Of a DNA stretch of 64,000 nt, positions 4,536-63,500 are shown in pieces. Source of the stretch: Trissonchulus latispiculum (lineage: Eukaryota > Nematoda > Enoplea > Enoplida > Ironidae). The DNA is taken from NCBI GenBank assembly GCA_030248195.1, contig JASAND010006748.1:1-64000 (forward strand), in the 5' to 3' direction. The stretch's first letter is position 1; the number at the start of each line of letters is the position of its first letter. The translations under genes and the position numbers were made by a program. The notes beneath the pieces are model-generated. The model was not told the DNA's origin and ran no database searches. It saw only the letters and a list, made by a program, of their open reading frames with translations.

Positions 4536-4776
4536 AATCTTTACACTAGCTAGGTTTAGCGTGGTTTAGCTCGGTAAGTAGGGACTTTAGGGTCTAGGCT
4601 CTGTGGTAAAGTAGTGAGTTAGGTTTCACTCATTTCTGGTATTTCCTAATTGGCGAGGCTAGACTGGTTGTTTCCCTGTGTTTGGTCCTTGTGCGGCTCG
4701 GGGCGAGCCTCTTGTAAGCGAGGGAGAGATGTACAGAGAGTACCAATGATATAGAGGTTATGTGCTCTTCTCTCCT

Positions 4777-4848
4777 GGCTCCGTGGTGTAGTGGTTGCAC
4801 GCCTAACTGCAGTTCGGGAGGTCCGTGGTTCGATTCCCGGCGGAGCGA
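4777..4848 (+). tRNA. tRNA-Cys(GCA)-like unit 3
   Basis: Same as units 1 and 2 except that the base after the acceptor stem is G rather than A (GGAGCGAAA instead of GGAGCCAAA), which weakens the last acceptor pair. Boxes A and B are intact. Confidence 0.45.
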
Positions 4849-4849
4849 A

Positions 4850-14345: not shown

Positions 14346-14415
14346 ATGAAGGACCCAACGTTACGGTTTGCAAGAGTACTCGGCACAGTGTTATTGCAAA
14401 TGGTCAAAGTCGAAA
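14346..14415 (+). CDS. Candidate signal-peptide exon 1 of Hog gene A
   Basis: An ATG at 14346 opens MKDPTLRFARVLGTVLLQMV, a basic start followed by a modestly hydrophobic stretch. A GT after 14415 (CGAAA|GTGGA) gives phase 1, which joins in frame to the Hint exon at 14505. The hydrophobic core is weak, and this exon does not resemble the signal exons of genes B and C, whose sequence is not found here. It may be a replacement exon created by the duplication, or the true exon 1 may lie elsewhere. The donor site is not a strong match. Confidence 0.3.
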
Positions 14416-14504
14416 GTGGATTCGAAATAAATGGTTTACCTTTCACAAGAGAATATTACAGCAGCAACCATTCGTGCAAATTATCTTGCTTTAAATATGT
14501 TTAG

Positions 14505-15268
14505 GTGGCTTTTGCGAAGACTTTTGTCGAGAGTTTGGAATAAATGATATTACGTGCCCACCTTGTCCACCTCCAGCGCCTGCATGCATTTCTGGAAACA
14601 GCTTTGTTCGAACAACAGCTGGTCCCCTTTCAGTGGCTTCGTTGATAAATGCTCCCAATAGGGTAAAACTTTTGGCCATTTCTGAGGAAGGCTCACTGAT
14701 GTGGTCACCAATTAGCTTCCACTTACATCCCCCTAACAATCGAACACAAACTGGTATAAGGCTTTGTGTAAAAAGAAATATTCAGGTGGATTTAACTACG
14801 GAACATCAATTATTCACATGTGATTGCAGGAGCGGAATTATTCATGAAAAGTCAAGATCTGCAAAGTTTATAAACGTGCAGTCTTGCCTTGTGTTACCGA
14901 AACCTAGTGGTTATGAATGTGTTAGTGTGGAATCAGCTCAATCAGTTGAAATAGGTGGTCTTTATAGTCCAATTACGGCAGACGGAACAATTGTAGTAAA
15001 TGGAGTTGGACTATCGTGCTACTCTTACATTGACCACAACACTGCCCATAAATTATTTAGCAGAATTTATACGCTGTCGTCGGGCATGAAACATTGGATT
15101 CAGCAAGTATTTTATCGCCTGAAATGGTATGAATGGACTCAGTGGATGAACTTTTATTTATTGAAATCAGGTATGTTCCAGCATATCTCAACGAAGAACT
15201 ATGATAGCCACATGCCGATTTCAGAGGACTCAGAACTGCATGAAGTGCATGAATTAATGCGTAAATAA
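14505..15268 (+). CDS. Hog (Hint) domain protein A, main exon
   Basis: This is a secreted-type protein consisting almost only of a Hedgehog-type autoprocessing Hint domain. In order, exon 2 encodes a short Cys segment (GFCEDFCREFG then CPPC), the Hint start CISGN with the expected nucleophilic Cys, LAISEEG, the TTEHQLF block (TxxH), GLYSPITADGT and VGLSCYSY, the Hog-specific C-terminal motif. In Hedgehog, these residues carry out the thioester step and sterol transfer; that activity here is inferred. The exon follows an AG at 14503-14504. The C-terminus runs about 26 residues further than in genes B and C because the aligned stop codon reads TCA. ATTAAA at 15314 may serve polyadenylation. It is the first of four loci on the same strand. 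Confidence 0.85.
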
Positions 15269-15313
15269 TTAGTGTACCAGTCAAAATACTATAACACTTT
15301 ATATCAAAGGCAA

Positions 15314-15319
15314 ATTAAA
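15314..15319 (+). terminator. Variant poly(A) signal ATTAAA, Hog A
   Basis: It lies 46 bases after the Hog A stop, at the position homologous to the AATAAA after Hog B (27591). Confidence 0.5.
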
Positions 15320-16495
15320 CTGCATTCACTTACAGCGTTGTCTTAGATTCAACTTGTTTGAGAATATAGGGAAAGATCACATCCCACATATAGAAGGCGA
15401 ACGATCCTAGAGCCAACTCAGTAGAGTGCGCCAAATATGATAGTTTCTAGGCAAGAAAGCAATTTGTATTGGATCTCTTCAACACTGTTGCATCCTACTC
15501 CCTAAGCTCCCGGTACTTGTAGTGCGTCAATGAGCTCAATCTGCTCCGATGCTTCCGGTAAATTAGGTAATCGTGTACCTCTTAGGCCTCTAAACATATA
15601 CAAGATTCTCTTGACTGCTACTTTTTTAGAAAACGACTTAAAAGTTTTATACCCTGTTTCCACAGCCAGCCTTTCAGCAGACCTGAGCACAACAAGCTAA
15701 AGTCTGGCGGAAAGCAATTTAACAAACTTGCAATATCTGATTTTCATTGTTCTCTTTAAACTTTTACCAGACTTCGAGTGTGTAGCCAAAGCAGCCACGA
15801 TTAGACACAGTTCACTTATTGATTTTACTGTTTACTCGATTTAGCACAATAGTGTCTCATTCCGTCTCACAATAACTTTTGATCTTGTAATTTCTTGCCT
15901 ATTTTGCGATTCCGTTGAGCATGTGATAAGAAATGAATAATGAAGAGTTTGCTTTATTTCTGGAGTAACAGTTGCTACTTAAAAGATTAAAACACGTTCA
16001 GCTAACGTATATATTCTTTAAGCACATGAATGTACAAAAAACTTTTTAAGCATTGGTCGGCTACGCCAGAAACGAGAGAGAACAACTTCCAAACGAAGAA
16101 GAAACTAGACATGCTTACACGCCATCGGATTAATTAGATTCCTCTAATCTCGACTATTATTTTCTGATATTAAAAATCCTTTGATCTTTGCCGCTTTTTC
16201 GAAATTGACTGACTCGTGGCTCGCTGAGTGCACGAAATTATTGTTTTTGTTTTCAGGACCGCCCAGGCGTCAGCTTTGACCTGACTTGTGCTTAGACGTA
16301 TATGTAATGTAGTATTTCACAATTTGAACGTCTGTTTTTTCGATAAATTCCGGTTTTTGACCCAAACTTTCGGCATAGCGATTCTAGTGAAAGTGAGTAA
16401 AGATAGCATAATCATAGAGCTCAATCTGAGGTCAATTCAACGATATAGAGTTTTCGTGGCTATGACCTACATTTCGCCAGCAATGAATTTTTAAA

Positions 16496-18058
16496 CAATT
16501 CCCCTTAGTTCAGCTGCTTCGTGTAAACTTTTATATGCTAGTCGCAAGCGAATATCAGATAAAGTAAAGACTACAGGATCGAAAGTGTGTGCATGTCTGA
16601 TTACTCCTAATTCCGCTTACCCTACAGACCGACTCGCCGGCAATCTATTTTAGTACCGCAAGTTTATTTTTCAAAAGGGTGCAAGATAGTAATTTGTAAC
16701 CGAATACAACAAGAGACAAAATTGTAACGCAGCAAGGTATAGCTTTTCCAAATAATGAAATAACTACAAGTTTCACAATAAAAAAGAACCTAATTCAATT
16801 ACAAGATAACCAAGCGAAAAGGGTCAAACAATTCCGGAGTAGAACCCAAACGATGGTCCCCCAATCCACTAATCCGGACAATTGTCATATAAACCAATCT
16901 ATTCGTAGAAAAAGGTAGTACCACACGGACTGCAAAATGGTCGGTCAACCCAACTTTTGAATATTAGCTACAGAGACTGAGGTTCATACACAGAAAAATG
17001 AAGTTTCATTTATGTTCATGAAGATAGCATTGCACTTTAATAATTTTGAATTGAATTCGAGGAGAATGTTATGAAATATTCCACAGATTACCCCCTCTTT
17101 TGAAACGCGCGCCCTCGCCGCAGTCGCCAGGCAGAATTAGTTAGTAAAACAGGGGTGTGGGGCAACAACCGAGGATATGATAACTTTTGTTAGATGTAGA
17201 AAATATTTCAATACGGAAATTAAAACACTTTCTTACTTGCTGTATGCTTCAGCTAATCAGGCCACAGTCATTCAGTCCCATGGTTTTCACTAGTAAAACC
17301 TATATGATTTATATATGTTGCAGCTCTGCTGTTGCAAATTATATTTGTTGAAAATTTCAGATAAAATGAAAGCAAATATACTGATACATCAAACTTTTAC
17401 GTTAAACAAAAAAATGTCCGCAAATCAATTCCATTTCAGTTGACAAACCTTTTTGCGAAAATGATCGGTTTTTAATTTCAATTTAATATTTATATTTAAT
17501 GTTATACAATTTCTTCACATTTGTCCTTAATATATATAACTAGACCTAAAACTGGTCCCTATAAAGTCTCTAGTCCCTAAAAGTCCTAAGTCCCTAAAGT
17601 CCTAAGTCTAGTCCCTAAAAAACTTTTTAGGGCATATATATATGCCTTAAAAAAGTTTTTTAGTACACCGGTTTTACAAGTTCCTTAGTAAAGCATTACC
17701 TATCAAATGGCGAAGCCTCTTAAATATTCTCTGGCGTGATTCAGAACATAATTGCATAAAGGAAACTGAACCTTCGAAATAGTTTAATGCCCAGACTGGC
17801 CAACTCAAGGCTTAATGTAGTTTTAGTTTCACCAACCAGCCTTCGCGCCTCACATTACAACCAATATTTTTGCTTTACAAATTAGGTTGAAAGTGAGACA
17901 CCCTGGTTGGAAAGTGAGACAGGGAAGGTTACAAAAAGAGACATAATCAATATGTAAATCTATAAAATTTGCTAATACTTGTATTTTTGAAAACTGACAT
18001 TTGGCTAAACCTAATGTAGCCTAATACGATAGTATCTGCAACAGTTTTTACTATTAAG
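16496..18058. other. No gene recognised; small word-repeat foldback
   Basis: AT-rich sequence. At 17540-17665 the word AGTCCCTAA is repeated next to a hairpin in which CTAAAAAACTTTTTAGGGCA is mirrored across ATATAT. This resembles the word-array MITEs elsewhere in the window. Nothing else is supported. Confidence 0.45.
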
Positions 18059-18300
18059 GTGGATATTGTGAAGATTATCGTCGCGATCATGGCACAAATG
18101 AAATCACATGTCCACCTTGCCCGCCACCAGCATCGTGCATTTCAGGAAACAGTTTAGTAAGGACTGCATCAGGCTCGTTCCATGTATCTTCATTAACACA
18201 GATTTTTTTATAATGAAAAAGTGTTAGCTGTTTCCAACGATATGGTCATCAATCAGCTTTCCATGCACCAACCTAACAACAGAACACAAATAGATTGATT
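18059..18300 (+). pseudogene. Hog pseudogene, 5' half of main exon
   Basis: After a plausible acceptor AG at 18057-18058 the frame reads GYCEDYRRDHGTNEITCPPC and CISGNSLVRT, clearly homologous to the starts of the Hint exons of A, B and C. The second Cys of the Cys segment is Arg. The frame ends at a TAA after about 50 codons. Decayed homology (LAVSNDM-like and QPNNRTQ-like segments in shifted frames) continues to about 18290. No signal exon is recognisable upstream. Confidence 0.8.
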
Positions 18301-18841
18301 GATTAATTGAACCGCAGAATGATCAGTTACTTATTACCCCATAAACTGTTTCTATACGATAACTCATTCCGTACATGGTTCTAATTCTAGGCTGTTTGCT
18401 CAGCAATGGTTAATTTTTGGTCCTCCTTTTTGGTCACTGTCAGTTGGTCCGTGGTTCGATCCCTCTCTGGTCGGAACGTCACTCTTCCGACCAGACTCAT
18501 CAACAGTGTCATCGTTCGTGGACTCTCTTCTTCACATCTTTCAATCCTGATTTCACCTCTCCACACCAGAACCGTCGACTGCCGAAACTTCCCCCTGTGG
18601 CGCCCCACGTTGGCATCCGCCGACTTCCCTGACCGACGGCACACATAACGCCGCGGTACTCACTCCCTCTCCCCCCCACCAGTACCGTCTCAACCGAACG
18701 CAACAACGGCACGGCGCGGATTCCTACCCGCCGGCCAGCCCAACTGGAATCTCGTGTCCTCAGGGTGGCAAGCTTGCACCCACTCCTTCCTTGGCCGATG
18801 TGAACTGTTACCGGCCGCCAACCACTGCCGCTGACTGCAGC

Positions 18842-18945
18842 CTGGAGCTCTGACCGTCGTAGGTCCCTCTCCGGTCATCTCCCCCGTCCTCAACCCCTGG
18901 AGCTCTAGCCGTCGTAGGTCCCTCTCCGGCTATCTCCCACAGAAG
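18842..18945 (+). repeat. Short tandem duplication (~54 bp)
   Basis: CTGGAGCTCT followed by CCGTCGTAGGTCCCTCTCC occurs twice in direct orientation, starting near 18842 and 18896. Confidence 0.7.
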
Positions 18946-19750
18946 TCACTGTCCCACCCCCTGCTGCACTGCCAATCCAGACTCACCATTAGCCTGGACT
19001 GCTACTTTCACTGCAACCATTACCGACAGGAAGATCTGATGAACTAGAAAGTTTTGCGAACAATATAATCGAATGCCTATTTGTACAGTTGAGTTGTCTA
19101 GGTTGGAATTTTAAGTATACCCTATCTGTAATGTTTGTTCACGACTAATCTATGCTGTGATTGACTGTTTTGCTTTGCTATACTTCCCCCCCTAGTAAAA
19201 ACCTACCACATTTTTTGCGGTGGAGAGTGTGGAGGATAGAAAATTTGTAATACTAGGGTCGGGCCGAAATGTGTGAGATATGACTAGAATTAGTGAAAAT
19301 TAGTGAAATAATGATTGGATTTTTGGTTGATATTGAATTGATATTGAACTGATTTCTATACCTTGCATACTTGACTTTTGTAACTTGACTTTTGTATTTT
19401 ATACCCTGACTTATACTTCTGACACAAATTTCGTATATCTGTGGTCATATCCTATTCTATAGTTAGCTATGTATTTCTTTGCTGGCTCTGTTGAACGTAA
19501 AGTTAAAAGGTATTTTGGTCTTTGAACTGTGACTGTCGTCTTTAGTATTCGGTCTCTATTTGAAGTTGATTGTTGTTCACTATTTGAGAAGTTTTGACAA
19601 AGAAGTTAGAAATTCTAGCTGTTTCGTGATGGACATTTTTATTTGCAAAACGAATCCAAAATTGGGTACTTATCTCCCCAGGAAACTAAGTGGGGTTAAT
19701 GCGTCCAAGTTTGGGATTTTTGGGAGCCTCCTTCACCCCTAGAGCTGGGT

Positions 19751-19778
19751 TCATACGTCACTGGTAAGTGACGTATGA
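19751..19778. other. Hairpin with 12-bp perfect stem beside (AC)n
   Basis: TCATACGTCACT pairs perfectly with AGTGACGTATGA around GGTA. It contains two inverted TGACGT (CRE-like) sites. An (AC) run of about ten units follows at 19782-19802. Confidence 0.65.
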
Positions 19779-20994
19779 TGGTACACACACACACACACAC
19801 AGAACGCACTACACGAAAGGGAGCCGCAAGCTCCGCCTTACACGTCACGCACACATGATTGACAGGTCTTCCCCAAAACCAAAAATTTTCCCAAATTTTG
19901 AGATCAGTCGTGGTTGAGCTGCCCGAAAACTCAGTCGTGTTTTCGCTGTCATTTTGCTGACTTACTAGTCCGAGTGGATTTTGTGACCGAGGGCCCGTGA
20001 AGGGATAGACCGGTCGGTCAATTTTGGATTGTGTGTACGGTCTTTATATTGACCGGTACGTTCAGGCTTTACTTGTTGGGGGCTAGCCACGACTCGTCTG
20101 TTTTCTGCTATTTTTACTCTGTGATTACCTTCCCGATCTGCTATTTCCCGTGTTTACCTTTGGCCTTATCCTTGGGAGGACCTGTCAACTGATCACATCC
20201 ATCACACACGGAACCGGAGCATACAGGTAACTCGGATCGTGAGTTTGATGAACCAGGAGGGTTAATATTGTCCTGAATTAGCGTGAGACTTTAAAAGAAC
20301 GCGTTGTCTAAAAATTGAGGTTAAAAGGATCTTTGACTCTTGATTGACACTAGCCAATTATATTGTACTTGTGTATCCTTGTATGATTTTGTGTTCTGTA
20401 CTTGCCTACCTAGATGTCGGTATCCTTGTATTCTAAACTGTAGATAATGCTGTACTATGTATAATCATAATCGTGACTGTCTCATTAAACTAATAATTTA
20501 ATTTAATTAAGACGTGAATTGGCTTTACCTGCTCTTGAGCGAGAGATAGTTAAAAGAGAGATCCTTAGATCGCCAGAAATTAGGAAGCAACTGGGAACCG
20601 AATATCTAGATTTATAGTTAGTTAGATTAATATGCTGACCCCTGTGCATGCCCTTGAATGACTGGGGAATAGCACGTAGAAAGCCAGAGCTAAACGTGAG
20701 TCTTCCGGGATTTGTATCTAATTTTGTAGAGAAAAGGGGATCAAAACGACCCCCAGATACCCTTTTCTTTACATATATAATATAATACAATTTCATGATA
20801 ATAACGATCATTAATAATAAAAAATAATAATCATTATAAATTAACATTGTTAATTAATTTTTGCACGAAATATTTATTTATTTACAAGATCCAATTCATG
20901 TTAATTATTATTTATTTATGTTTTCAAAAATTTATTTTTGTCGTATTTCGTCCAGATACGTTGCAATTCAACATTGAGAATATTGTAGTGCTCA

Positions 20995-21268
20995 TGTGAC
21001 TCCCAGTTTCAGTTTTCGACCAATCAGCACAGAGCAAGCTTGTTTTGATTGGAAGGCACTGAAAGCACAACTCAAAATGTTTGACATTGTCAAACATTCC
21101 CAAAGCACACCGAAAGCACTAAAGCGCAAAGCACAAAGCACAAAGCACAGAAAACCATCATGAACCGGGAAAGCACAAAGCACAAAGCATTGTGCTTTTC
21201 AAACCATCATGAACCGAGAAAGCACAAAGCACAAAAACACAAAGCGCAAAGCACACCATCGTGAACCG
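20995..21268. repeat. Word-array MITE fragment (AAAGCAC word)
   Basis: AAAGCACAAAGCAC is repeated from about 21100 to 21260, interspersed with ACCATCATGAACCGGGA, and ends in GTGAACCGGGCTTA at the junction with the Hog 3' half. No matching left end was found, so it is partial. It resembles the MITE at 35114-35379, which ends in GTGTGAACCAGGC next to TTAA. Confidence 0.55.
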
Positions 21269-21447
21269 GGCTTATCATGCTACTCTTCATTTACTACAAC
21301 AAAGCTCATAAATTGTTCAGTAGAATTAACTTCCTGTCGTTGGAGACGCAACATTGGTTTCAGCAAGCATATTTTCAACTAAGTGGACAAGAATGGACTC
21401 AGTGGATGAACAAATACTTATTGAACCGAACCGTTCAGACTTTTTAG
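21269..21447 (+). pseudogene. Hog pseudogene, 3' half of main exon
   Basis: The sequence starts at TCATGCTACTCT (the SCYS of the Hog C-terminal motif) and matches the last ~60 codons of genes A-C: CATAAATTGTTCAG, ATTGGTTTCAGCAAGC, GAATGGACTCAGTGGATGAA. It ends at the homologous stop near 21447. A one-base deletion shortly after SCYS breaks the frame. With 18059-18300 it forms one disrupted gene. Confidence 0.8.
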
Positions 21448-23354
21448 CATATTTCATGAGATTTGGACGGACAACTTTAATGAACATGCGTGTGAATTCC
21501 GGCACCTTTTTCTTAATACCAGGCGCAGTTTAGCAATTTTTACAAGGACTTAGTTTTGGTAATATATGATTGTTGTGCCCAATTATTGTTAGAATTTGAA
21601 ATTAAAAGTAATCGGAAAATATGTTTAACTGCAATGTTCGTCTCTTTTGGCTTGGGCTCCTGTTCTGAGATTTGTTGGAATCAAAATTTCAACCTATAAT
21701 TATTTATTTTTGAAACTTTAAATGTTGAAGCCATTCGCCATTGCTCTGTTCTAAGCTTGACCGCTCCTATAACCAATCAAAATGCAGGCAACGACCTTCT
21801 GCTTTGATGCGAAGTCGATCCACATCTTCGTGCTTTTAGACCTAGGAATCGACAAATTGCAGTACAGTGCTGGCTACGTGTTGTTTGTTAGTGTACCAAA
21901 AAGTTGTAAACATCGTTAGCCAATAAACAAAGAACCAGACTATTCAGTCTGCAGCAAAGCTAGTTCGACAACAATCGCTATTACTGAGAGTTAGGAAACA
22001 CTTATTGTAATTCTCTTAGAAGTTCTTAGAAGCGTAACGTTGCACAGTAAGGCAACAAGTGGATGGATGCTTTTTGCCAACGCACAGGCTTTATAATCGT
22101 ACTGAAATTAAATCAGTTCGAAAGATATTTGGCAAATGTTTAGTCGCAACCCGCCCTAAGTAGTGTTTCCGGGACTACATTCAGCAGTTGGACACATCAA
22201 TACAAGTTTCCGTTTAAACAGCCGACATAACTGAGAATTTGAAGTACAAGTAGAAGATTGTCTGGTTGATGGTATGCTGTTCATTAGCAATGGTTTTGGA
22301 AAGAACGAGCAAATTTGCGTGATTGGGCTGCCGCTGTCAGTTTTTTCTTACGGGAGCGCGGGGCGCCAAAAATAACGTTTCCGTGAGCATAGCGCTTCGG
22401 CCCCATCACAACTATTCATCAACTCAACTACAGGTTTCGCATAAGATCCATATTATGCTGATTCCATAATATTTCACAACTTTGACTCTATAACCATCCA
22501 GTATATAATTGTGTACTTACGAACTGTTGTATATGTTGTAACGAACGAAATGTAACTGAAATATAGTTGTACTTCAGATGTCCGAGAATACTTCACTGCA
22601 GTGGTCGTTTGCGCCCTTTCAATTTTGAAGTACAGAGTACTTTCGCATGTCGCATCGAGGACAGTCCCCCATATGTCAGTTAGCACATTCATCCCACGAA
22701 TGTTCCCACATGTACAATTTTGGCCAAATCGGTAGAGTCAAAAAAGCTTACAGGGAAGACACATCTGGCAAGAATGTAATGATAATAATAAGGGACATAT
22801 ACACCCAAATTAAGGGGTTGGCTTGTATTGAGAAAAACGCGTCTACCCAATAAAATTAAGCCTTGAAATGGTACCAATTACATAGTTTGGTTTCTAACTT
22901 ATTGAGAACTAAAATATTTGAATTCGTTACTTCAGAGTAAGCATAGCGAAGGAATACAGTATATGTTCACTGAACCGGGTAATCTTGTTTTGCGACATCA
23001 AAGTCAACACACAAACAAACAAAGCCGAATCGTTTTATCGTATGTGGACTCAGCATGGAGGAATGGATATATACTGATTCAACGAATAACTGTCAGAATA
23101 TTGACCAGTTGTGAAACAATGGCAGGCAATTTTGAGATTTTACTGTATAGGAATAGTGTTATACATTTTTGTTCTAAGCTGCCTTGAGCAAGATTCATGG
23201 TAAAGAGTTCACGCTCTCAAGGCTTGAAAGCGGAGTCAGAAATCACGCTCCTAGACAGAATTAATTTCCCATTTATGGATACCTGATAGCAATAATCACA
23301 ACAACAAACAAAACAACAGCAAAAAGATTCCAACCACTTTGCACATGTTTAGAT
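21448..23354. other. No gene recognised
   Basis: Short overlapping frames only, none with a recognisable domain or splice structure. Confidence 0.4.
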
Positions 23355-25290
23355 TAGTGCTGGGGCCGGTTTCAAAAAAACCGGTAGAACCGGAACCGGA
23401 ACCGGTGGGATTTTTAGAACCGGAACCGGAACCGGTGGCTTTTGGAACCGGCCGATTCTGGTGTTAATTTAGGCTGTTTGAAACTTCAATCAAGGTTTAT
23501 TTTGTAAAATTTTGAAATTTTCTTAGAATTTGAATTTAGCATTTAGAATTTAACTTTATTTTGGTACTTCTATTAGATATAAAATTTTGTTTTTGAAATG
23601 TTGTGTAAATGGCAGAAGATTTGATATCAATTTGACGATGTCTCTACTAACAGTTTTCAGTCAATGTTTTAAGTTTTCTGAAAAGGTTATAGAAAAGGAA
23701 AAACTAAAGTGTATTCAGTGTTAACTCTTCTTTAAGGTGATGACAAAGGTAAGCATTAAGGATTTGATGCTTTACGGAATCTCTTCCAGGTTTAGCTGTT
23801 GCCACTGCAATTTTTGTGTGCAAACTTCAACTGAAGCAAACCGGCATACTGAAGGCGCAACTCGAGATTAAGGGTTAAGCTGAGCAACAGTATCCCTGAG
23901 GAGGTACCGTTCTTATTTAATTAAGAGCAATTGGCTAGCGCTACCGAAAAAAGAATGCCTTTGATGGTCTATTAAAAATATTCATATTTCATAGTCATAT
24001 TTTAGTACTTTTTGCTTATATATGGGTTTAGGATTTGATAGGGAATAGCGCTCTTTTGTTACAAATTTGTTTATTTTAGCTACAAAAATTAAAACAAATT
24101 GTATATAAAATAAAAACAAAAACTTAGCAGCTTGATTTATTGTAACATACAATTTTTGGTTTTAAAGGTATGAAGTTAGCTGTTACCTGTGTGCTGCATA
24201 AGCGCTCGAAAAGTTTTAATTTAGTGTTTTAGAACGACCGAGTTGAACCGGCCGGCGGCAGGCCGCCGGCCACCGAAAAATGTCACCGGCCGGCCGCCGG
24301 CCAACGGCCGGCCGGCCGGTGGTTGGCCGTTCTCGGCCGGCGGCCACCGGCCAGCCGGCCGCCGGCAGGCCGGCGGCTAGCCAGACATATTTTTCAGTGT
24401 TTGAAGGCAACCTCAGACAGAAGTTGCAAAATATTTATATTATGCATGACAAAGGCAATGGAATCGGTTTTTACTTTATATATTTGGAAAAAGTTACATT
24501 CAGTCTTGGATTTGTTTTGTAAACATCTGCTGTTCTGGTCAAATTGCTGTGTTAACTACAAATATTTGTGTTAAGCCGGCGGCCAGCCGCCGGCCAATGA
24601 CCGGCCGGCGGCCAGCCGCCGGCCAATGACCGGCCGGCGGCTGAACGGCCGGACGGCCAACGGCCGGCCGCCGGCCGAACGGCCAGACACTCAGCCGGGC
24701 CGGCCACCGGCTCAAAAGCCGCCGGCTTCCCGGCCGTTCTAAAACACTATTTTAATTCTCGTTCAACGATTTTACCCAATGTTTTCTGCTATAGTTTTCG
24801 ATCTTAAAAAATCTTCGACCCCGAGATGAGCTTAGCTGCTTTTTCAATGATTAAGCTTTGTAATGTGTAACTGTAACTGTTGAATCGATAAGCAAATTTT
24901 ATTGGACTGCTTGAAATTAATCGAGGAAAGTTTTGTTCGCTTTCTGAAGGGCAGTAGCTAAATGTTTATCTAGATTGAGAATACTTAGTATTTTGGTAAG
25001 CTCTGGTAGCTAAAATTTCCCCAACATATTATTAAAAATGAAACAGATCATATCTTGTTCACAGTAAATATTTGTATATAAATAGTAAATAGTAAGCAAA
25101 AACATTGTTTAAAAACACGTTCATAGCTTTGTGCAGTTAGCAATTGTCAAAAAGTAAAAAAAACTCGTGTGATTTTAGCTTTTTTATCAAAAATACCAAT
25201 TGGAACCGGAACCGGTAGCTAGAACCGGAACCGGTAGTCAAGAACCGGAACCGGAACCGGTTTCAAAAATCGGAACCGGTCCCAGCACTA
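23355..25290. mobile_element. hAT-type MITE, 1.94 kb, host of nested MITE
   Basis: The left end TAGTGCTGGGGCCGGTTTC is matched by the complement at the right, ending CCCAGCACTA at 25290. The flanks GTTTAGAT (23347-23354) and GATTAGAT (25291-25298) agree in 7 of 8 positions, consistent with an aged 8-bp hAT duplication. Both ends carry arrays of GGAACCGGAACCGGT. No transposase is present. A second MITE is inserted at 24222-24749. Confidence 0.83.
24222..24749. mobile_element. hAT-type MITE, 528 bp, nested, exact TSD
   Basis: Terminal inverted repeats begin TAGTGTTTTAGAACG (left) and end CGTTCTAAAACACTA (right). They are flanked by the exact 8-bp duplication TTTTAATT (24214-24221 and 24750-24757). 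Just inside each end are very GC-rich arrays of GGCCGGCGGCC-type words. The reading frames across these arrays are repeat products. Confidence 0.9.
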
Positions 25291-25734
25291 GATTAGATCA
25301 CCACATACAGTATTCTTAAAGCCCAAATGAGTTGCCGTTTGTTTTTCTTATCACTGTTTAGGTATTATATAGAACAAATTGGGTAATTATTTAATTTAAA
25401 CAGCTTCCTCTATAATATGAGGTTACGTTCAATAGAATACTTCAACAGTTAAAGCTAGTTCTTATGCATAAATTCGAAAACTCTGGGGGTCTTGCACTTA
25501 TACAGGGCCATGATGGAAGGAGCAGGATGTAATCCATGTCTTGGCAGGGTTTGAATGAAACATCCACATTCCAACGAACAGGTACACGAGTGGAAATAAA
25601 AAGCGCAAAAAATAATATTTTTGCCTTTTGTTTTTGTGAATAAAAACACTTCTGTAAAGTGCTGCATTTGTTAGTGCTGGATGCATGCATTCAATTGGTG
25701 AATAACTATGGAATTTTAATAACAGGATATTGCA

Positions 25735-25935
25735 GGCGTGCACTCCGACGGCACATTTGAAGGTTCTTGTGATTAGACGTAATATACAGGCTTTGCATCA
25801 GTTGCAAGCAAAGGATTAGTTTTTGCCAGTCTAATAAATTTTTGCTGTAATAATTTATAACCTTCTAAATAAAGGTTTCGCAATGAATGGAACTTAATAG
25901 TATGATTTTAAGCATCAGTTTGAGCATTTGTTACT
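25735..25935 (+). promoter_or_regulatory. Paralogous upstream module, Hog B
   Basis: Shared with 32395-32670 upstream of Hog C. Both contain GACGTAATATACAG, a TTGCATCA(T/G)TTGCA segment, TTTTTGCTG followed by AATTTATAA, and ACTGCAGA in the same order. It lies about 0.7-0.85 kb before the signal-peptide exon. Retained homology outside the exons may be leftover from duplication or a conserved control region. Confidence 0.5.
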
Positions 25936-26404
25936 GCAGAGTGGCTGACCATTTAACAGTGTACTATTTTAGATAAGGCCAGTTTAGGACTCAGCGAGAA
26001 GGCGTGCCTCCTAACATTAAATTTGTTCCAATATATTTCCTTCGAAACTTTCGCATCAAAACTGCACCAACAAAAACCAAAATATCTTTATAAATTTCTG
26101 TCTCCCGAAGCTCTCAGTAACTACAGTGTTACAAGGTGATTGCTCTCCTGTAATATTGCATTGTTCGCATTCAAAATTCCAAAAACTGTCCAAATGCATA
26201 TTTTTAACTAACAAACTGCGCTGCACACATACTAAGTTCAGTTTTGCGGAAGCCTGATTCCTTCACACTGACTTGTCTAGAACACTAACCAGTAATGACT
26301 ATCAATTTAGTACAAAACCGCATTACAAATTTGTTCAAAGATAAAAATTAAGCTGTCTTTAGCCTTTGAAGAGTAGATCACAGAAATCAATTGAAGGACG
26401 GACT

Positions 26405-26470
26405 AGAAAACCAATTGGAGTATGGAATAGAAAACCAATTAGACTATGGAATAGAAAACCAATTGGAGGA
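26405..26470 (+). repeat. 24-bp tandem repeat, ~2.7 units
   Basis: AGAAAACCAATTGGAGTATG and its near copies recur with a 24-base period, just upstream of the Hog B signal exon. Each unit contains CCAAT. Confidence 0.65.
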
Positions 26471-26599
26471 TACACTGTAAATTGATGTTAAAAGGGCATT
26501 CATCCTGCTAAAATACTACATCATTTTTGGTTTTAAGCATTGCTGGGTTTTCCGTGACTTGAGCTGGTTGGTAAATTTTTTACAGGCTACATTGGATTA

Positions 26600-27472
26600 A
26601 TGATTGCCATAATATTGATGCTCAGTGATCTGATATGGATTACTGCAGGTAACGCTTTGTTTTTCATGTTCCGTGTTAAACTCGTGCATTTTAATTTGCT
26701 AAACAGTATATTCTGTACTTGGCATGTTGCTGTAACTAGAGTTGTACAACAAATCGTGCAAATTATGTTTTCTTAAATATGTTAAGGTGGCTACTGCGAA
26801 GACCTTTGTCGTGATACTGGAATAAGTGACATTACGTGCCCACCTTGTCCACCGACGCCTGCCGCATGTATTTCTGGAAACATGTTTGCTCGAACAACAG
26901 TTGGTCCCCTTCCAGTGGCTTCGCTGATAAATGCTCCAAACAGGATAAATGTTTTGGCCATTTCCGAAAAAGGTTCGCTTGTGTGGTCACCAATTAGCTT
27001 CCACTTACATCCACCAAACAATCGAACACAAACTGGTATCAGGCTTCGTGTAAAAAGAAATATTCAGGTGGATTTAACCACGGAACATCAGTTGTTTGCC
27101 TGTGATTGCAGGAGCGGAAAAATTCATGAAAAGTCAAAATCTGCTAAGTTTATAAACAGGCAGTCATGCCTTGTTTTGCCGAAACCGAATGGTTATGAGT
27201 GTGCTAGAGTGGAATCAGCTCGCTCGGTTGAAATAGTTGGTCTTTACAGTCCGATTACGGCAGACGGAACTATTGTAGTAAATGGAGTTGGCCTATCTTG
27301 CTACTCTTACATTGACCACAGAACTGTCCATAGACTTTTTAGCAGAATTTACACCCTGTCAGCGGATATGAAACATTGGATTCAGCAGGTATTTTATCAC
27401 CTGAAATGGCATGAATGGACACAGTGGATGAACTATTGTTTACTGGATTCTGGTATATTCCAGCATATCTGA
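26600..27472 (+). CDS. Hog (Hint) domain protein B, two exons
   Basis: Exon 1 (26600-26648) encodes MIAIILMLSDLIWITA, a clear hydrophobic signal peptide. GT at 26649 and AG at 26785-26786 bound a 138-base intron; exon 2 is 26787-27472. The joined frame gives 244 residues. After the signal come C20, C24, C34 and C37, then the Hint domain from C44 (CISGN). TxxH is at 114-117, GLYSPITADGT starts at 168, and the SCY cysteine is near 188. By homology with Hedgehog, Hint would cleave before C44 and release a ~27-residue four-Cys peptide, possibly modified at its C-terminus. No Hedgehog signalling domain is present. All expected Hog motifs are intact. It belongs to the same-strand cluster with A and C. 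Confidence 0.88.
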
Positions 27473-28470
27473 AGGAAGAATTAAGCTAGCATATGGCGAT
27501 TTCAGAGAATGACTTAGAACTTGTACATGAATAAATGCGTGAATAATTTGTGTACTAACCAAAACACTATAACACTTTATTTCAAAGGAAAATAAAACTG
27601 CATTCACTTACAGCGTTGACTTAGATTCAACTTGTTCAACTCTTGACTGGATACAGATATACAGATGCTCTTAACTGCTACTTTTTTTAGAAAAAGACTT
27701 AAAAGTTTTATACCCTGTTTCCACAACCAGCCTTTCATCAGACCAGAGCACAACAAGCTAATGTCTGGCTGAAGGCAATTTACAAACTTGCGATATCTGA
27801 TTTTCATTGGGCACTCTTTAAACTTTAACCAGACTTCGAATGTGTAGCCAAAGCAGTCACGATTAGACACAGTTCACTTATTGATTTTACTGTTTACTCA
27901 ATTTAGCACAATAGTGTCTCATTCCATCTCACAATGCGAGAACTTTAGATTTCGTAATTTCTTGCCTATTTTGCGATTCCGTTGAGCATGTGATAAGAAA
28001 CGACTAATGAAGAGTTTTTTTATTTCTGCAGCAACAGTTGCTATTTAAAAAATTAAAACATGTTCAGCTAACCCGTATTTTCTTTAAGCACATGAATGCA
28101 CTGAAAACTTTTTAAACATTGGTCGGCTACGCCAGAAACGAGAGAGAATAACTACAAAACGAAGAAGCCTGGTCAGACTAGACGTCCTTGCACTCCATCG
28201 GATTGAAATTGACTGGCACCTACTCGTGACTCCCTCAGAGTAAAAAATTATTTGCTTTGATTTTCAAGACCGCCTAGGCGTCAGCTTTGACCTGACTTGA
28301 TGTATATGTACTATTTCAAAATTTGAACGTTTTTCGAAAAATTCCGCTCTCTGATCTAAAATTTCGGCATAGCAATTCTAGTAAAGTGAGTAAGGATAGC
28401 ATAATCATAGAGCTCAATCTGAGATCAATCCAACGATATAGAGTTTTCGTGGCGACAGCCAAAGAATAGC
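26750..28470 (+). repeat. Segmental duplication, copy 2 (Hog B locus)
   Basis: Paralogous to 14470-16495 (see that entry). Copy 2 ends within a sequence that is then mirrored at about 28470-28640 (AATTTTTAAACAATT, CTATATCGTTGGACTGA), so the duplication boundary abuts an inverted repeat. Confidence 0.8.
27591..27596 (+). terminator. Poly(A) signal AATAAA, Hog B
   Basis: A canonical AATAAA 118 bases after the Hog B stop. Confidence 0.6.
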
Positions 28471-28640
28471 AGAAATAAGGCAATTGTTTAAAAATTCATT
28501 GCTGGCGCAATATAAGTTGGAGCTATATCGTAAAACTCTATATCGTTGGACTGACCTCAGATTAAGCTCTATGAGTATGCTAATTTACGCCTTTTGCTAG
28601 AATCGCAATGCCGAAATTTCGGGTCAAAAAGTGGGTTAGT
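28250..28640. repeat. Inverted repeat at duplication edge
   Basis: CATAGAGCTCAATCTGAGAT and CCAACGATATAGAGTTTT (about 28406-28455) are mirrored at about 28525-28570 (AAAACTCTATATCGTTGG, CTCAGATTAAGCTCTATG). A further inverted match to the left part (CGCCTAGGCGTCAGCTTTGA) occurs near 30110-30135 (TCAAAGCTGACGCCTAG), so a related element probably brackets 28640-30060. Confidence 0.65.
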
Positions 28641-28804
28641 TGTTGGTGTATTCAGAGTAGAAATGTAGAATGCAAAGGCATAAGTGGTGTCGTAAACTGA
28701 TTACGACAAATTTTCTGAGGGGGGAAAGATGTGGACGCTGTGTCGTTTTTTATTGTGCGTGTCCTGGTTTAAATTGTGGTGGTTACCATCTTGTTTGTGC
28801 TTCC

Positions 28805-29820
28805 GTGAGTGTGTCCTACCATGCTCTAAACTATACATTCTACATGACAGGTAGACATGCAGACGTCCCAAAGCATAGAGACTTCGGAGAGACAGAGACT
28901 TTGGAGAGAAAGACCGACAATAGCCCAAAAAATGTGTCCACATACATGTCGGAATGTGTAAACATGTACACATGTATAGGAGTATACTTGTCCTAGTGAG
29001 CATTGAGCTCTAGCAATATGGATTACACCGAACATCCCCAGAGCCAGACAGCCACTATTTATGTGTACATTTACATGTTGACACATGTATACATGGACAC
29101 ATGTGTACATGGATACATGTATACATGGACACATGTATACATGGACACACGTATACATGGACACACGTATACATGGACACATGTATACATGGACACATGT
29201 GTACATGGACACATGTGTACATGGACACATGTGTACATGGACACATGTGTACATGGACACATGTATACATGGACACATGTGTACATGGACACGTGTATAC
29301 ATGGACACATGTATACATGGACACATGTATACATGGACACGTGTGTACATGGACACGTATATACATGGACACAGGTATACATGGACACATGTATACATGG
29401 ACACATGCGGGAACATGTACACATGTATACATGTATGTATATGTATACATAGAAAGTGGGAGTCTGGCTCTGGAGGAATTTGGTGTAAACCAGATTGCAA
29501 GAGCGGTTAGAGCTTAATGCGCTCTAGGGTAGGCGTACATCTACACATGTGTACATGTTTGCACCTGTGGACATGTAGATGGACACATTTTTGGGGATGC
29601 TGTCGCTCTGTCTGTGTCTCTCATCTCTTTCAAGTGTGGTCTGGGGTCTACATGTCTATATTTCTGACCATGTAAATGTAGACATGTATCTTCGTTGGGC
29701 CTCTAAGTTGGGGCATTCCCTCGTCTCTTTTTCCCTTCTACGCATAGGTCTTGGACGGGTAAACCCTTGCACATATGTAGAATGTATAGTTTAGAGCGCG
29801 GCAAGACACACTCACATGGA
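28805..29820. mobile_element. Foldback element with minisatellite core
   Basis: Outer arms: 28824-28845 is an exact inverted copy of 29775-29796 (22 bp), extended on the outside by GTGAGTGTGTC opposite GACACACTCAC. Inner arms near 29020-29055 and 29455-29495 are also mirrored (CCAGAGCCAGAC opposite GTCTGGCTCTGG). The core is the 16-bp minisatellite at 29081-29400. The long open frames on both strands (His-Val-Tyr-Met-type repeats) come from the repeat and are not genes. Confidence 0.75.
29081..29400. repeat. 16-bp minisatellite, 20 uninterrupted units
   Basis: Twenty head-to-tail copies of ACACATGTATACATGG with no indel across 320 bases. Variation is limited mainly to A/G or C/T at positions 5-9 of the unit. 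The unit is close to self-complementary (CATGTATACATG) and mostly alternating purine-pyrimidine, so hairpins or Z-DNA are possible. A 16-base unit has no stop in several frames, which explains the open frames. Confidence 0.95.
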
Positions 29821-31550
29821 CAAACAAAAAATTAAATCGTCGGAGAGCTGTCTTATGTAACAACTAACAGTTTGGAAACCAGCGTAACAGCGTAATTGTC
29901 TTCAAAGCTGTAAACTTTAGAAATTTGGTTCACCAGAGCCTTTATTTTTCAAATTGTCGTAGAATTTGCGCTTCCTTCTTTTTTAGTTTGTCGTAATGTT
30001 GGAAGTATACATTATACGCGTGTCCATTGTCGTTAGGTTTGAATACATGGAAAAACAACCAAAAAGTGGCATTCTTCAAAAAATCTACTTTCATATTTTG
30101 AAATACTATATTAGGTCAAAGCTGACGCCTAGCCTGTCCCGAAAATCTAATCCAAAAATTTGTGCAGTTGACGAAATAGTTGCCAGGTATAGTTGCCAGT
30201 CAAACTCGAAAAACGGCAAAGATCCAAGAATTTTCACTATAAAAAATAGAATAACTCACGCAATATCCAAATGAAAATGTTGACATTTGGAGTGTAGGGC
30301 CTTCAGACAAGGGATAATGTTTCCTGAAAAAATCGCCGTAGTACGATGTAACAAACGTTCTGGCCAAAGAAAAGCGGTGCCCTTTGAAAACTTAAAACTT
30401 AAAAACATTTTCACAAAAAGAAAGATATCACCAGTCCGGTTCAGAAAATATATACTTTATGATAGCTATTGAAGCGCATTTGAGACATAAAGAAAACAAT
30501 TTCGCTTTCTACTTTTTTTGGTCAGACTTTAGCCACCAAATGTATCAAGTTTTTGTTAAGATAAAGTGACATATGAATCGATATGACGAACATATTAATT
30601 ACCAACACATGAATTAATATCATGTGAATTATGCAATGAAATTATATAAAATCCATGTCAATGTTTAGTTCTTTAGTGCTCGTTGTAGCTGATCGCAGTT
30701 TTTAAAGCCCATTTACAGCTGCTTGAATTACGCAAGAAATTTCATAGTTAAAGCAATCAATGAGTATCAAATCAAAACCATACATACATGAATTTTCCTA
30801 TTTTAAAAGTACAGAATTTATTTGCAAGACACAATTGATCAACGCAGAAAGCCAAGCGGTCAGGTATCTCGTTATTTTCATGCACTAGTAAACATTAGCT
30901 ATTGTGTTGCTTGCTATTCAGTGAATATCTGTCAACATGTTAACCTGCTACTTCTTCGATTTGGTGGGGTTACCCTTGGAGAAGCAGGACTAGATGCATT
31001 CCAGCTAGACGATGCTTCTAATGGGTGTAGGTTTCTTGTCAGACGTCGTCCTTTAGTGTTGGGTTTCCCTCTAGTGTACAATTGTTTTATCCTCCTTCTC
31101 TATATCTATCATCTGTTGTTTTCACTGCACTGGATGATATGGCCAGTTGGTATCTGATACGGTGACGGGGCTTCGCCTTTTTGTGAGTCTGTGTGTTATG
31201 TTTATGTATTGTGTATATTTGTTTGATTGTCGGGCCACTAAACTATATTAGTATTTACTCTTCCTATCTTCGCTATATTCTATTTAAATTTATTAGGATG
31301 CTACTTTCGTAGGTTTTCGGGCTCCTAAGTTAGTTTGAGTTAGTCTGTTTATTATTTTAAGGTGAGTCGTGTGGTTCCCGCTCGCTGAACTATTCAAATC
31401 TAGTGGGGCTATCCCGGATGTTTCCTCTTCACTTATAACTGATGTCCTCGTTTCAGTTGCCTTCGCGGGGTAACGGTGTCATCGTATTCGTTTGGTGTAA
31501 ACAGGCCCTCTAATTGCAGCCTTGCCTACACTCACAACTCTACATGTTTG
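29821..31550. other. No gene recognised
   Basis: Short frames without domains. Part of an inverted repeat with 28250-28640 lies near 30040-30140. Nothing else is supported. Confidence 0.4.
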
Positions 31551-32160
31551 TAGGTACAATTATGAGAGCTATACTACAATTGTATATATTGTAATTACAA
31601 TTTTCTGAAGTTGTTTTTACAAATATACAAATGTGCAATTGCTTAAATATATTGTTCACTAACTATGCTACTAATCGTTTAAATTTAATTTGACATTTGC
31701 ATCAATAATGGGATTTTCATTAGTAATACAACTGTTCGGAGAAGGAAGTCACATTAAATACTATAATAGTAGTTTGTAAATTCTTATTTTTCTGCTAGAA
31801 CTGTAAAATGGCGCTACAACTCTATGATTTAATAAACAACGTACAGCGATAACATCTTTCCCAAACGCAGCCATTTTGTGGCATCTACAATCCTTTTTGG
31901 TATTTATGTATTGTAGTAGAATTTTACAACAGGAAATTGACGAAAAAGAATTGGCCCAGTATAGTTCTTTTATGAAATGCACAGCATTCTACAGTTGTAT
32001 GGCAACAAGTGGAGTGATTGTTATATGAATCTGAATATTCTATACAATTGTAATTACAATTCTTACGATAAGACAGCTGCAGGTCAGATAGTTGGTCTAT
32101 GAAACCCAATCTGACTACAATTGTGGGTATTGTAGTCAGCAATTATTTTATGAAATAGTC
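31551..32160. repeat. AT-rich word-repeat foldback (ACAATTGTAATTACAATT)
   Basis: TACAATTGTATATATTGTAA near 31572 and ACAATTGTAATTACAATT near 32042, plus CTACAATTGTGGGTATTGTA near 32112, form mirrored word clusters at both ends. This is the same layout as the other word-array MITEs. Ends and target duplication were not resolved. Confidence 0.45.
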
Positions 32161-32394
32161 CCCTGACATTGGATTCCGATTGTTCTTACTCCATCGATTC
32201 TGGAAAAGTGAGGTTTTCAAATTTTTGTATCCAAATCCCAACTTTGGCTTTCGGAAATATAATAAATTATTTATTCAGCGTTATATCCACAAGGTTTATG
32301 ATAATACTGTTGGTCCTGTTAATGTGTTTCGCAACGACATCCGCTAGATATTGAATTCTTTCGTGCTGACTGATTTTTGCACCAGCGCAATAAA

Positions 32395-32670
32395 TATTGC
32401 AGGAGTGTTCTTCAAAACGCACTGCCAGATTTTTCTTATTAAGACGTAATATACAGCTCTTGCATCATTTGCATTTTATAAATCTGTTTTTATTTGTCTA
32501 CTAGATTTTTTGCTGCAAGAATTTATAATCTTGAAAAGTGATTATATGTTATATGTATGTTATATGTTACTTTTTAAGTTATATGTTTATATAAACCTAA
32601 GCGATGTTATAGATGATAGTTAACACTAAGATTTAAAGCACCATTTTGCGATTGTAATATTACTGCAGAA
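32395..32670 (+). promoter_or_regulatory. Paralogous upstream module, Hog C
   Basis: Counterpart of 25735-25935 with the same ordered landmarks (GACGTAATATACAG, TTGCATCATTTGCA, AATTTATAA, ACTGCAGA). It lies about 1.0-1.3 kb before the Hog C signal exon. Confidence 0.5.
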
Positions 32671-33164
32671 TCACTTAAGTTGTTACTATTATACAGTACA
32701 ACGCATCTGACAGGAGTGGAATCGGTTTTCGCCACCGTAAGGATAGGGTTGGGGGTAAAATTACTCAGCTGAGCCAGCATATTAGCTACAAAAACTTCCA
32801 GTTTTAAAGAATCCTTCATCCTCAAAGAGAGGGAGTTCTTAAAACGGGCTGCTTTTTCCGTAATTTTCCAAAAGTGACTTGCATAATTGAAACCAGGACA
32901 GGTGAGAACATCTACCACTGTCACCTACACCACTGTTGGAACAAATAAAACCCGACGTGACAGAACGCAAAATTTAAGATTTTTGGGCATGGATTTTGTG
33001 TATCGTTTTCTTTGGTGACACTTCATGAAAAATGTGCTCACCTGCCTTGTCAACGGTCAATATGCAAATTGAAAGCCAGTTTTCAGGTGAATGTGGGTGT
33101 TGATGTTTTCGAAACAAAGTGTAAATAATAAAATATTTCCGTAATATGCAACTCGCTGAACCCG

Positions 33165-33300
33165 AGTCTGAAGTCCGTTTTTCAAATCAGCTGTAAATTT
33201 TAAAATTAGCTCAGCATAAGCTTGCATCGTTAGCTTATTCCAAGCTAGCGAAAAGCTGAATCGAAAAACGGACTTCAGATTCATGTTCAGCGACACAGAA
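33165..33300. repeat. Small palindromic repeat
   Basis: TCTGAAGTCCGTTTTTC near 33170 is mirrored by GAAAAACGGACTTCAGA near 33257-33273, with GCTTATTCCAAGCTAGCGAAAAGCT between. It is related in sequence to the centre of the foldback at 51555-52176. Confidence 0.6.
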
Positions 33301-33695
33301 AACCTCTATATGCAACTTTTCAGCCAAGTCGGCGAAGAACTTTTCCGGTCCCCTTGACAATCAAAAAACATGGAATCCCTCGAAATCAAAAATCTTATGA
33401 TACTTGAACTCAGCGTGGTCGAAAACATACCCATGCCGAATTTCAGCTCAATTGGTCAAGTTTATTTATTCAGAGTGGTGGGGGTATTCTGGAAGGGACC
33501 GCAGAATTCTTCTTCCAACAGTTTGGAAGAAAATTAGAAAGGGTTTGCAGGTTTGCAGGTTAGGCTGTAAATTAGTAAACTTGGGTGGGTAAGCCAACTT
33601 GTCTTTTATACGTTTTATGTTTTGAAAGTCATCTGGACGACTTTTGTAACTAGACCTGGCAATTCTCAATTTGAAGTAACATTCTATACGAATTT

Positions 33696-34888
33696 ATGAT
33701 TGCAACACTACAGATAGTCAGTGTTCTGATATGGACTGCTTCAGGTAACGTTTCGTTGTTGTTTGTGTCTTTATATACAGGAGTTTTCATCCTTTCTATA
33801 TGTTAAGAATATGCGCAAACGTGGATTTACAAGAGTAGAAGCAGAAGCTAAGTCAGACGTCGTTAGACATGCTAACCACTACATGTCCGAATCAGCTGAA
33901 CTTTAATGTTTCTTGTCATCAATGCTTCTTATGCCTGCTTTCCCTATAGAGTATATTTTGACTCCAGTTTGCACGTTTCAAACTAGTACAACTTAGCTAA
34001 CTTGGTAAACTGTAAAAAGATGCCGATATGTACCTGATTCAAAAACCTCCAATTTTGCCTATATTTACCGAATCACATAAGTTGCAACCAGACGAAATTA
34101 ACGGATGCATAAAATTTATTGTGGAGGAAATGGATACTTGCAATGCCCAATATTAGCTTAATATTTGGATTTACAATCAATTCGTAAACATTTTAGGCGG
34201 ATATTGCGAGGACACCTGCCGCGATTTTGGTCTCACTGAAATCGGATGTCCACCGTGTCTGCCGCCGGCAGCTTGCGTTTCTGGAAATAGTTTAGTCAGA
34301 ACACAGTTAGGTTTAGTTAGGGTGGCCTCATTAGCCAAAACTCACAGCAGCGAAAACGTTTTAGCTATTTCAAAAGGAGGATCACTGATATGGTCACCAA
34401 TTAGCTTCCATTTGCATCCACCTAATAACAAAACAGCTAATGGTATTAGGCTGCAAGTCAAGCGGAATATAAGTTTAGAGATAACGACAGAGCATCAGCT
34501 GTTCACGTGTGATTGTAGCACTGGCTTAATTCTTGAAACGTCTAAACCTGCAAAGTCTGTAAACGACGAGACATGCCTAGTGTTGCCTCAACAAAGCGGG
34601 TATGCTTGTGCTAATGTGGAATCTACTCAACCGACTGAAATAACTGGTCTTTACAGCCCAGTTACTGTAGATGGGACTATTGTAGTGAATGGAGTTGGGT
34701 TGTCATGCTACTCTTACATAGATCACAACACTGCTCATAAATTATTTCGCGGAATTCACTCCTTGTCTTCGGACATGCTATATTGGATTCAGCAAGTGTT
34801 TCATCAACTAAATGAAAACGATTTTACACGTTGGACGAACAATTATTTACTGAAGGCAGAAACAGTACAGACATTTCAGCATATTTAA
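33696..34888 (+). CDS. Hog (Hint) domain protein C, two exons
   Basis: Exon 1 (33696-33744) encodes MIATLQIVSVLIWTAS, a strong signal peptide. The phase-1 donor GTAACG is identical to that of gene B. A 452-base intron ends in AG at 34195-34196, and exon 2 runs 34197-34888; the protein is 246 residues. The four-Cys segment is C20, C24, C34 and C37, with the Hint Cys at C43 (CVSGNS). The TTEHQLF block, GLYSPVTVDGT and VGLSCYSYIDH are intact. It ends at the same FQHI as gene B. It is the most diverged copy. The charged and polar residues between the cysteines vary while the cysteine spacing holds, as expected for a selected secreted peptide. Sterol-transfer activity is inferred only. Confidence 0.88.
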
Positions 34889-36220: not shown

Positions 36221-37445
36221 TATTCTGTGTTTAAGGAACTAGGAATACTAAATACTACAAACAACAACACTTATTTTGAAATTCAACCAGATAATGAAAA
36301 TAGTATAATAAATAAAATAAATGCATTTTGAAACCTCTTAATATCAGCTGTAATGACAACAATAAACTACCATTTATCTATATAATTCCAAAATTTCTTA
36401 AAGCTCCTATAAAATTCAGAACTATATAGCTAGTCGTAACACTTCTTGTAGTCCTCTTTCAATTACTCTAGATAAAATACTCAAGCTTATTTCCATAAGT
36501 AGAAAAAGGCGAAGTAAAATATTAGAGTGTACTACAAACTGTAATCCTTTTTGGATCATCGATAGCAATAAGCCTATACTAAAAACAGTAGCACAGTTAA
36601 ATGGAAATAAAATGGCCAAAACAATTAATACTTACGACTTTACTACCTCGTATACTACATTGCAGCATAATACTATCGTTTCTGCTTTAAGCCATACAAT
36701 AAACAACGAAGTGACTAATCGTATTCATATACGATATGGCAAAGCGTATTGGGGAAACGGTGCACCTAAATATACTACATACACTAAAACCGATATTATA
36801 AATATGTTACAGTTTTTAGTAGAAAACACTTACTTTAAAATGGGCAACAAATTGTTTCTTCAACAAATTGGTATACCAATGGGAACAAATGCTGCCCCAA
36901 CTATAGCTAATCTAACCTTAAACTTTTTTGAGCATAAATTTATAACCGACAAAGATAATTCACACCTGGCTAAGTTTCTTATCTACGCATATAGATACAT
37001 TGACGATATCACAACCATTAATGACCACAACGTCTTGGAAACAAATCAAACTAAAATTTATCCGCCAGATTTAGAACTAAATAAAGTTAATTCAAGCAAT
37101 AAAGAAGCTAATGTACTTGACTTAAACATAAGTATCTCTAATGAAACTTTCACTACTAAAATGTATGACAAAAGGGAAGATTTCTATTTTTGTACTTACA
37201 AATTCCCTCCCGCAGACTCTAATATATCCAGTAAAATCATGAAAAATATAATAATCTGTCAATTAACACGAATCTGTGAAATAAATGACAAATTAATTCA
37301 TCTCAGAAAAAACCATAAAGATCTATTTGAAACTTGTCTGAATAGAGGACATTCAAAGAAGATGTTCTTACGCAGCTTAGACAAAACACTTAAACAGCAA
37401 ACATGGATCAAAGAAAAATTCCAACTTACTGATAAACTAACGTAA
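36221..37445 (+). pseudogene. Penelope-type reverse transcriptase relic
   Basis: The longest intact frame (36612-37445, 277 codons) contains QQIGIPMGTNAAPTIANL and the catalytic YRYIDDI box, then TKMYDKREDF and a C-terminal region typical of the 'GIPMGTN..RYIDD' RT group of animal genomes. I place it near Penelope-like elements; the family assignment is not certain. Coding similarity continues upstream: FWIIDSNK in the same frame, then IPKFLKAPIKFRT after a frameshift near 36427 (an apparent extra TA), and a more N-terminal segment before another shift near 36331. No GIY-YIG endonuclease domain was found downstream. The element is 5'-truncated and dead. Confidence 0.8.
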
Positions 37446-38743: not shown

Positions 38744-38886
38744 TGTTGTGTTGAGAAAAACATGAAGTGCAAAAAACTTAAAAAGTAAAAGACTTTTGGA
38801 ATTCCGTTCCTCTGTTGTTGTGTAAACGTACTGAAGTATAGTCCTGGTTTTTCTTGACACCACGTTTCTGTTCTTACTACACAACA
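38744..38886 (+). repeat. Possible short 5' LTR of the Gypsy element
   Basis: It begins TGTTGTG and ends CACAACA, the inverted TG..CA ends expected of an LTR, and lies 7 bases before a primer-binding site. At 143 bp it is short, and no matching 3' LTR was found, so this is tentative. Confidence 0.3.
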
Positions 38887-38893
38887 TATATTT

Positions 38894-38904
38894 TGGCGAC
38901 GAGG
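38894..38904 (+). other. Primer-binding site (tRNA-Ser type)
   Basis: TGGCGACGAGG is complementary to the 3' end of a tRNA ending CCTCGTCGCCA, as in tRNA-Ser. It lies directly before the Gypsy gag start. Confidence 0.55.
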
Positions 38905-38908
38905 GCAC

Positions 38909-60531: not shown

Positions 60532-63500
<2,969 letters not shown>

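Follow-up and report, generated by a model that had tools for sequence, protein, structure and literature searches.

Very short N-terminal products ahead of a Hog domain are already described from enoplean nematodes. The text of Burglin 2008 (PMC2362128) gives predicted N-terminal products of 15 and 25 residues for Xiphinema Shog1 and Shog2 and of 34 residues for Trichinella Xhog3, describes such short N-termini as having no obvious similarity to one another or to other proteins, and argues that they derive by divergence from a progenitor. The same text presents Trichinella Xhog1 and Xhog2 as an adjacent gene pair with an upstream Enop motif that carries six conserved cysteines, and notes the loss of the N-terminal domain in C. 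elegans Hog-1. We analysed a 64,000-nucleotide (nt) stretch of Trissonchulus latispiculum contig JASAND010006748.1 (the window, to which all copy counts refer; guanine-cytosine (GC) content ~39%), in which four copies of a Hog gene, all on the + strand, are spread over ~20 kb. Three of them (genes A, B and C) retain an open Hint exon and the fourth is broken, as a first-pass annotation of this DNA had proposed and as open reading frames, matches to PF01079 and tblastn confirmed. The copies form a tandem gene family that encodes putative Hog-domain precursors: two members are complete, one is probably decaying and one is a pseudogene. The best overall explanation, which we hold with somewhat better than even confidence, is that these Hog precursors would give rise to a secreted peptide with four cysteines.

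As predicted from their sequence, B and C each retain both exons of the gene in full, unlike A and the pseudogene. Gene B comprises a signal-peptide exon of 16 codons plus 1 nt (26600-26648, + strand), a phase-1 GT..AG intron of 138 nt (26649-26786) and a second exon (26787-27472) encoding the four-Cys peptide (26787-26866), the Hint cysteine (codon 26867-26869), the remainder of Hint, a tail and the stop. Gene C is built likewise on the same strand, with a signal-peptide exon of 16 codons plus 1 nt at 33696-33744, a phase-1 GT..AG intron of 452 nt (33745-34196) and a second exon at 34197-34888, in which the peptide occupies 34197-34273 and the Hint cysteine codon 34274-34276, followed by Hint, tail and stop. 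Exon 1 encodes a hydrophobic putative signal peptide of 16 residues, whose cleavage site was placed by eye, and in the spliced precursors this signal is separated from the Hint cysteine by a segment with the spacing C-x3-C-x9-C-x2-C, 27 residues long in B and 26 in C, so that the layout first proposed for these two genes (a 16-residue signal and then a short four-Cys segment up to the Hint cysteine) holds.

That the signal exon arose by chance was rejected on the basis of shuffling and of the background rate of a fixed exon rule. Exon 1 is identical between B and C at 38 of 49 nt and ends in the same CAG/GTAACG donor, and identity drops to 3-9 matches in the 20-nt windows that flank it; the best ungapped 49-mer shared by the upstream regions of the two genes scores 39, which none of 300 Markov shuffles reached (maximum 31). 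A rule fixed as an ATG, a 9-residue hydrophobic core and a phase-1 G/GT donor near consensus picked out exactly these two exons in the 1500 nt ahead of B and C and gave no candidate upstream of A or of the pseudogene; among 400 random stretches of 600 nt, 6 contained one. The differences between the two exons comprise 9 non-synonymous and 2 synonymous changes over 16 codons, and conservation is therefore demonstrated only for their general form. Upstream room for a Hedge domain is confined to the 16 codons of exon 1 and, in B, the 138-nt intron; a larger N-terminal domain between the signal and Hint exons was thus ruled out in B, though not in C. Consistent with this layout, neither the Hedge domain (PF01085) nor any other Pfam family except Hint exceeded its cut-off in the second exons.

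The four cysteines, together with the motifs GG.CED.CR and CPPC, are conserved in the alignment of A, B and C. Below the Pfam cut-offs, the four-Cys segment of C weakly matches TIL, a Cys-rich inhibitor family (E 0.95, 10.1 versus 24.5 bits), and other matches of this kind were to a herpesvirus helicase-primase family in B (E 0.022) and to TAFA in C (E 0.069). The Hint exons score 76.3 (A), 79.5 (B) and 84.4 bits (C) with PF01079, all above the curated cut-off of 29.7 as expected from the first-pass annotation, the best-scoring stretch in B starting at residue 55, downstream of the catalytic cysteine. Structural comparison places them in the Hint fold, with fly Hedgehog (Hh) D46H/D303H (PDB 6TYY) and the wild-type protein (1AT0) tied as best matches. 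Features common to A, B, C and Hedgehog are this fold, Cys1, TxxH and SCY; Hedgehog differs by its Hedge domain, the Asp at D46/D303 (here His), the Gly that precedes the Hint cysteine (here Ala) and the tail.

For residue-level comparison we used 125 public Hogs, namely the best 120 of the 228 proteins that a wider profile (A2) matched at E<=0.001 and 5 from a profile (A1) that matched 6 proteins at E<=10. Cys1, TTEH (TxxH) and GLSCY are present in all three window genes, in agreement with the initial reading that the Hog motifs are intact, and in the matching columns of the public set Cys1 is found in 102 sequences (23 gaps), the Thr in 122 (Ser in 3), the His in all 125 and the SCY cysteine in 120. 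At the D46/D303 general-base column A, B and C have His, where the public Hogs have Asp in 116 cases and His in 9, a count that may be 8 since the His call in P0004 adjoins an alignment gap and an Asp. The same position is His in P0110 (Diaphorina citri, PF01085 plus PF01079) and in the near-identical P0107; by its sequence, P0110 is apparently a genuine insect Hedgehog in which the engineered base swap has a parallel in nature. According to a review account, D46H (D303H) engineered in Drosophila Hh retains activity and tolerates a wider range of sterols; a His base is common to that protein (6TYY) and the window genes, as a laboratory mutant there and naturally here. A, B and C moreover have four extra central cysteines, at columns where none of the 125 public Hogs has Cys. 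Their tail extends ~55-60 residues past SCY, is modelled at a predicted local distance difference test (pLDDT) score of 37-50 and, by eye and in a comparison without a named nematode Hog, looks unlike that of Hh; motifs K and L that differ from Hh are a published feature of the Nema-Hog clade.

By layout, the predicted B/C family belongs to the short-N-terminus Hog type of enoplean nematodes: as in Xiphinema Shog1 and Shog2 and Trichinella Xhog3, a signal and a predicted secreted product in the ~15-34-residue range precede the Hog domain in B (27) and C (26), and gene A falls outside this type. The first-pass annotation named Hog proteins with longer N-terminal domains but knew of none with this minimal layout, for which the published products of 15, 25 and 34 residues (PMC2362128) supply the precedent; the very short N-terminal Hog layout is already known, and the genes predicted here represent a variant of it with a recurrent four-Cys peptide. 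What sets them apart, by comparison with the published description only, is that a fixed four-Cys spacing recurs in A, B and C. The text of Burglin 2008, figures and supplements aside, mentions neither a four-Cys mini-peptide common to paralogues nor a His at the base position, an absence of little weight; the word hedgehog does not occur in the main text of PMC13233069. A further point against the rarity of the layout comes from public rows on short contigs with few residues before the cysteine (P0007, 14; P0008, 27; P0009, 27; P0021, 18), such N-terminal lengths being given for some of the 125 rows only; we interpret rows of this type as putative fragments of Hedgehog exons from short contigs, and P0021 groups with insect Hedgehogs in the tree. 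Like A, B and C, the Enop Xhogs and the Nema-Hog proteins (warthog, groundhog, quahog) have Hog without Hedge, and the extra cysteine pair published for the central Hog domain of the Nema-Hog clade may be a further resemblance; the Enop Xhogs also have a Cys-bearing upstream motif, but with six conserved cysteines instead of four. The Pfam scan of the exons reported none of the Wart, Ground or Qua families, no named nematode Hog occurs among the matches listed, and in a tree of 30 rows, with no named nematode Hog included, the window copies group together on a long branch of their own.

Gene A has a Hint/Hog exon with the four-Cys segment (14505-15268, + strand; Hint Cys codon 14585-14587). 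Its homology to B begins ~40 nt upstream of this exon, which therefore puts a duplication breakpoint between the two exons. The start initially assigned to it at 14346 was dropped as a signal exon: the candidate (14346-14415, + strand; core 1.9) is not convincing, has the poor, non-consensus donor AAA/GTGGAT, and was obtained under a relaxed rule that also matches 44 of 400 random 200-nt stretches. No further copy of the B/C signal exon was found on either strand of the whole window, where the best other matches reach 28-30 of 56. A stop directly after FQHI in B and C is lost in A, whose frame continues for 26 residues. With the signal exon missing and the stop common to B and C gone, gene A is probably decaying, though its Hint exon is still conserved. 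In the broken copy, tblastn and three-frame translations revealed the four-Cys segment and the start of Hint from 18059 to ~18300 (+ strand), with a frameshift, stops and the second cysteine changed to Arg. A C-terminal Hog remnant lies at 21268-21453 (+ strand; tblastn E 1.2e-12 against residues 184-246 of C), and the two pieces are probably one copy split by ~3 kb of inserted DNA.

By analogy with Hedgehog, the precursors most likely self-cleave and would thereby release a disulfide-rich mini-peptide, perhaps sterol-tagged. The signal peptide, judging from the common signal exon, would route the precursor to the secretory pathway, and the Hint fold, if active as in Hedgehog, would make a thioester at the Ala-Cys junction via the Cys, TTEH and SCY. 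Sterol, water or a thiol would resolve the thioester with His replacing the Asp base, as the fly D46H/D303H protein would suggest, and a GGYCED-CR...CPPC peptide of 26-27 residues, holding at most two disulfides, would be released. It might then act outside the cell, either as a signal or in the cuticle, as do other Hh-related N-terminal products of nematodes. It had initially been suggested that every gene yields such a peptide; the layout stands in B and C, gene A is without a homologous signal exon, and the sterol step has become less certain. Two points weigh against the proposed mechanism: the sterol step itself, because of the His in place of the Asp base, the poorly modelled tail and the Ala before the cysteine, and the faster evolution of the peptide than of Hint between A and B (non-synonymous divergence, dN, 0.165 versus 0.070). 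That Hog precursors with a natural His base are less selective in the sterol that they join to the C-terminal end of the four-Cys peptide, giving membrane-tethered peptide signals, is a tentative idea and in our view a doubtful one.

The A-B rates would also fit an alternative in which the function lies in the Hint domain or its cleavage, the four-Cys segment being no ligand but a linker that remains from a lost or shrunken ancestral N-terminal domain. The progenitor-divergence argument and the N-terminal loss in C. elegans Hog-1 in the text of Burglin 2008 (PMC2362128) point in the same direction; nonetheless we consider this alternative unlikely, given the conservation of the four cysteines, GG.CED.CR and CPPC in A, B and C and the rates measured against C. 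We calculated the ratio of dN to synonymous divergence (dN/dS, omega) by Nei-Gojobori for the pairs A-B, A-C and B-C over the peptide, Hint and tail segments. Hint is under purifying selection, with omega at 0.199 (A-B), 0.185 (A-C) and 0.201 (B-C); omega is 0.25-0.40 in the tail and 0.356 in the A-B peptide, the latter reflecting 9 non-synonymous against 7 synonymous changes. Despite saturation of the synonymous sites of the peptide against C, its dN (0.194 in A-C and 0.244 in B-C) does not exceed that of Hint (0.226 and 0.249). The comparison of Cys and Hint segments envisaged in the first-pass annotation thus returned a constrained Hint segment and a 26-27-codon peptide that is probably under purifying selection too, yet faster than Hint in A-B.

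On the basis that the CPPC motif ends 6-7 residues ahead of the catalytic cysteine, the segment might instead work as a redox switch, in which a junction cysteine bonds the catalytic one and gates autoprocessing, making the peptide a regulator and no signal. The structural matches do include 3NZM, by its title an intein 'with N-extein in redox trap', but the spacing in that trap is unlike that seen here, and we regard such a switch as improbable. Equally, the presence of a pseudogene, a gene A with neither signal exon nor the shared stop and transposon pieces nearby might indicate a dying tandem family whose degenerating copies have a remnant function; with B and C intact and a Hint omega of ~0.2 in all three pairs, this appears very improbable. 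Autoproteolytic release of a secreted four-Cys peptide remains the explanation that we prefer.

Other features were recorded in the window. Very GC-rich GGCCGGC repeat blocks, recognised by eye, lie between the pseudogene and gene B (24233-24740), and a palindromic array at 28907-29613, with 8/16-bp TACATGGACACATG-like units within longer inverted arms and several frames open, is probably a foldback element or satellite. A reverse-transcriptase open reading frame at 36402-37445, in which RVT_1 is below cut-off, is perhaps Penelope-like (judged by eye). A gypsy-like retrotransposon with RVT_1, RNase H and integrase, in broken form, occupies 38858-41055. Three clear exons of a cholinesterase-like gene (PF00135) with an incomplete C-terminal end are found at 47426-50386 (- strand), and a second, inverted and partial copy, very similar to the first, at 61491-63436 (+ strand). 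All 13 named rows within the top 18 cholinesterase matches (of 120 listed) are from nematodes, identity among the matches listed being <=46%, and the position in the cholinesterase tree is without support (72/40). These matches would suit a nematode, or a near relative, distant from annotated proteomes, and would be in keeping with the enoplean short-N-terminus Hogs. A likeness to Romanomermis in GC content (published value 36%) and repeats was considered but is speculative. An Rfam scan of the window returned three tRNAs and nothing else; these tRNA-Cys (GCA) genes (4106-4900) are in a 313-bp tandem repeat whose copies are 97-100% identical to the first.

Should the peptide be released as proposed, the use of the Hog module would extend beyond ligands of Hedgehog size to the production of lipid-tagged peptides in general, and natural enzymes with a His base would be available for testing what was found with the engineered swap. 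The locus would also add to the few described short-N-terminus Hog genes, which bear on how nematodes have diversified their Hedgehog-related secreted products.

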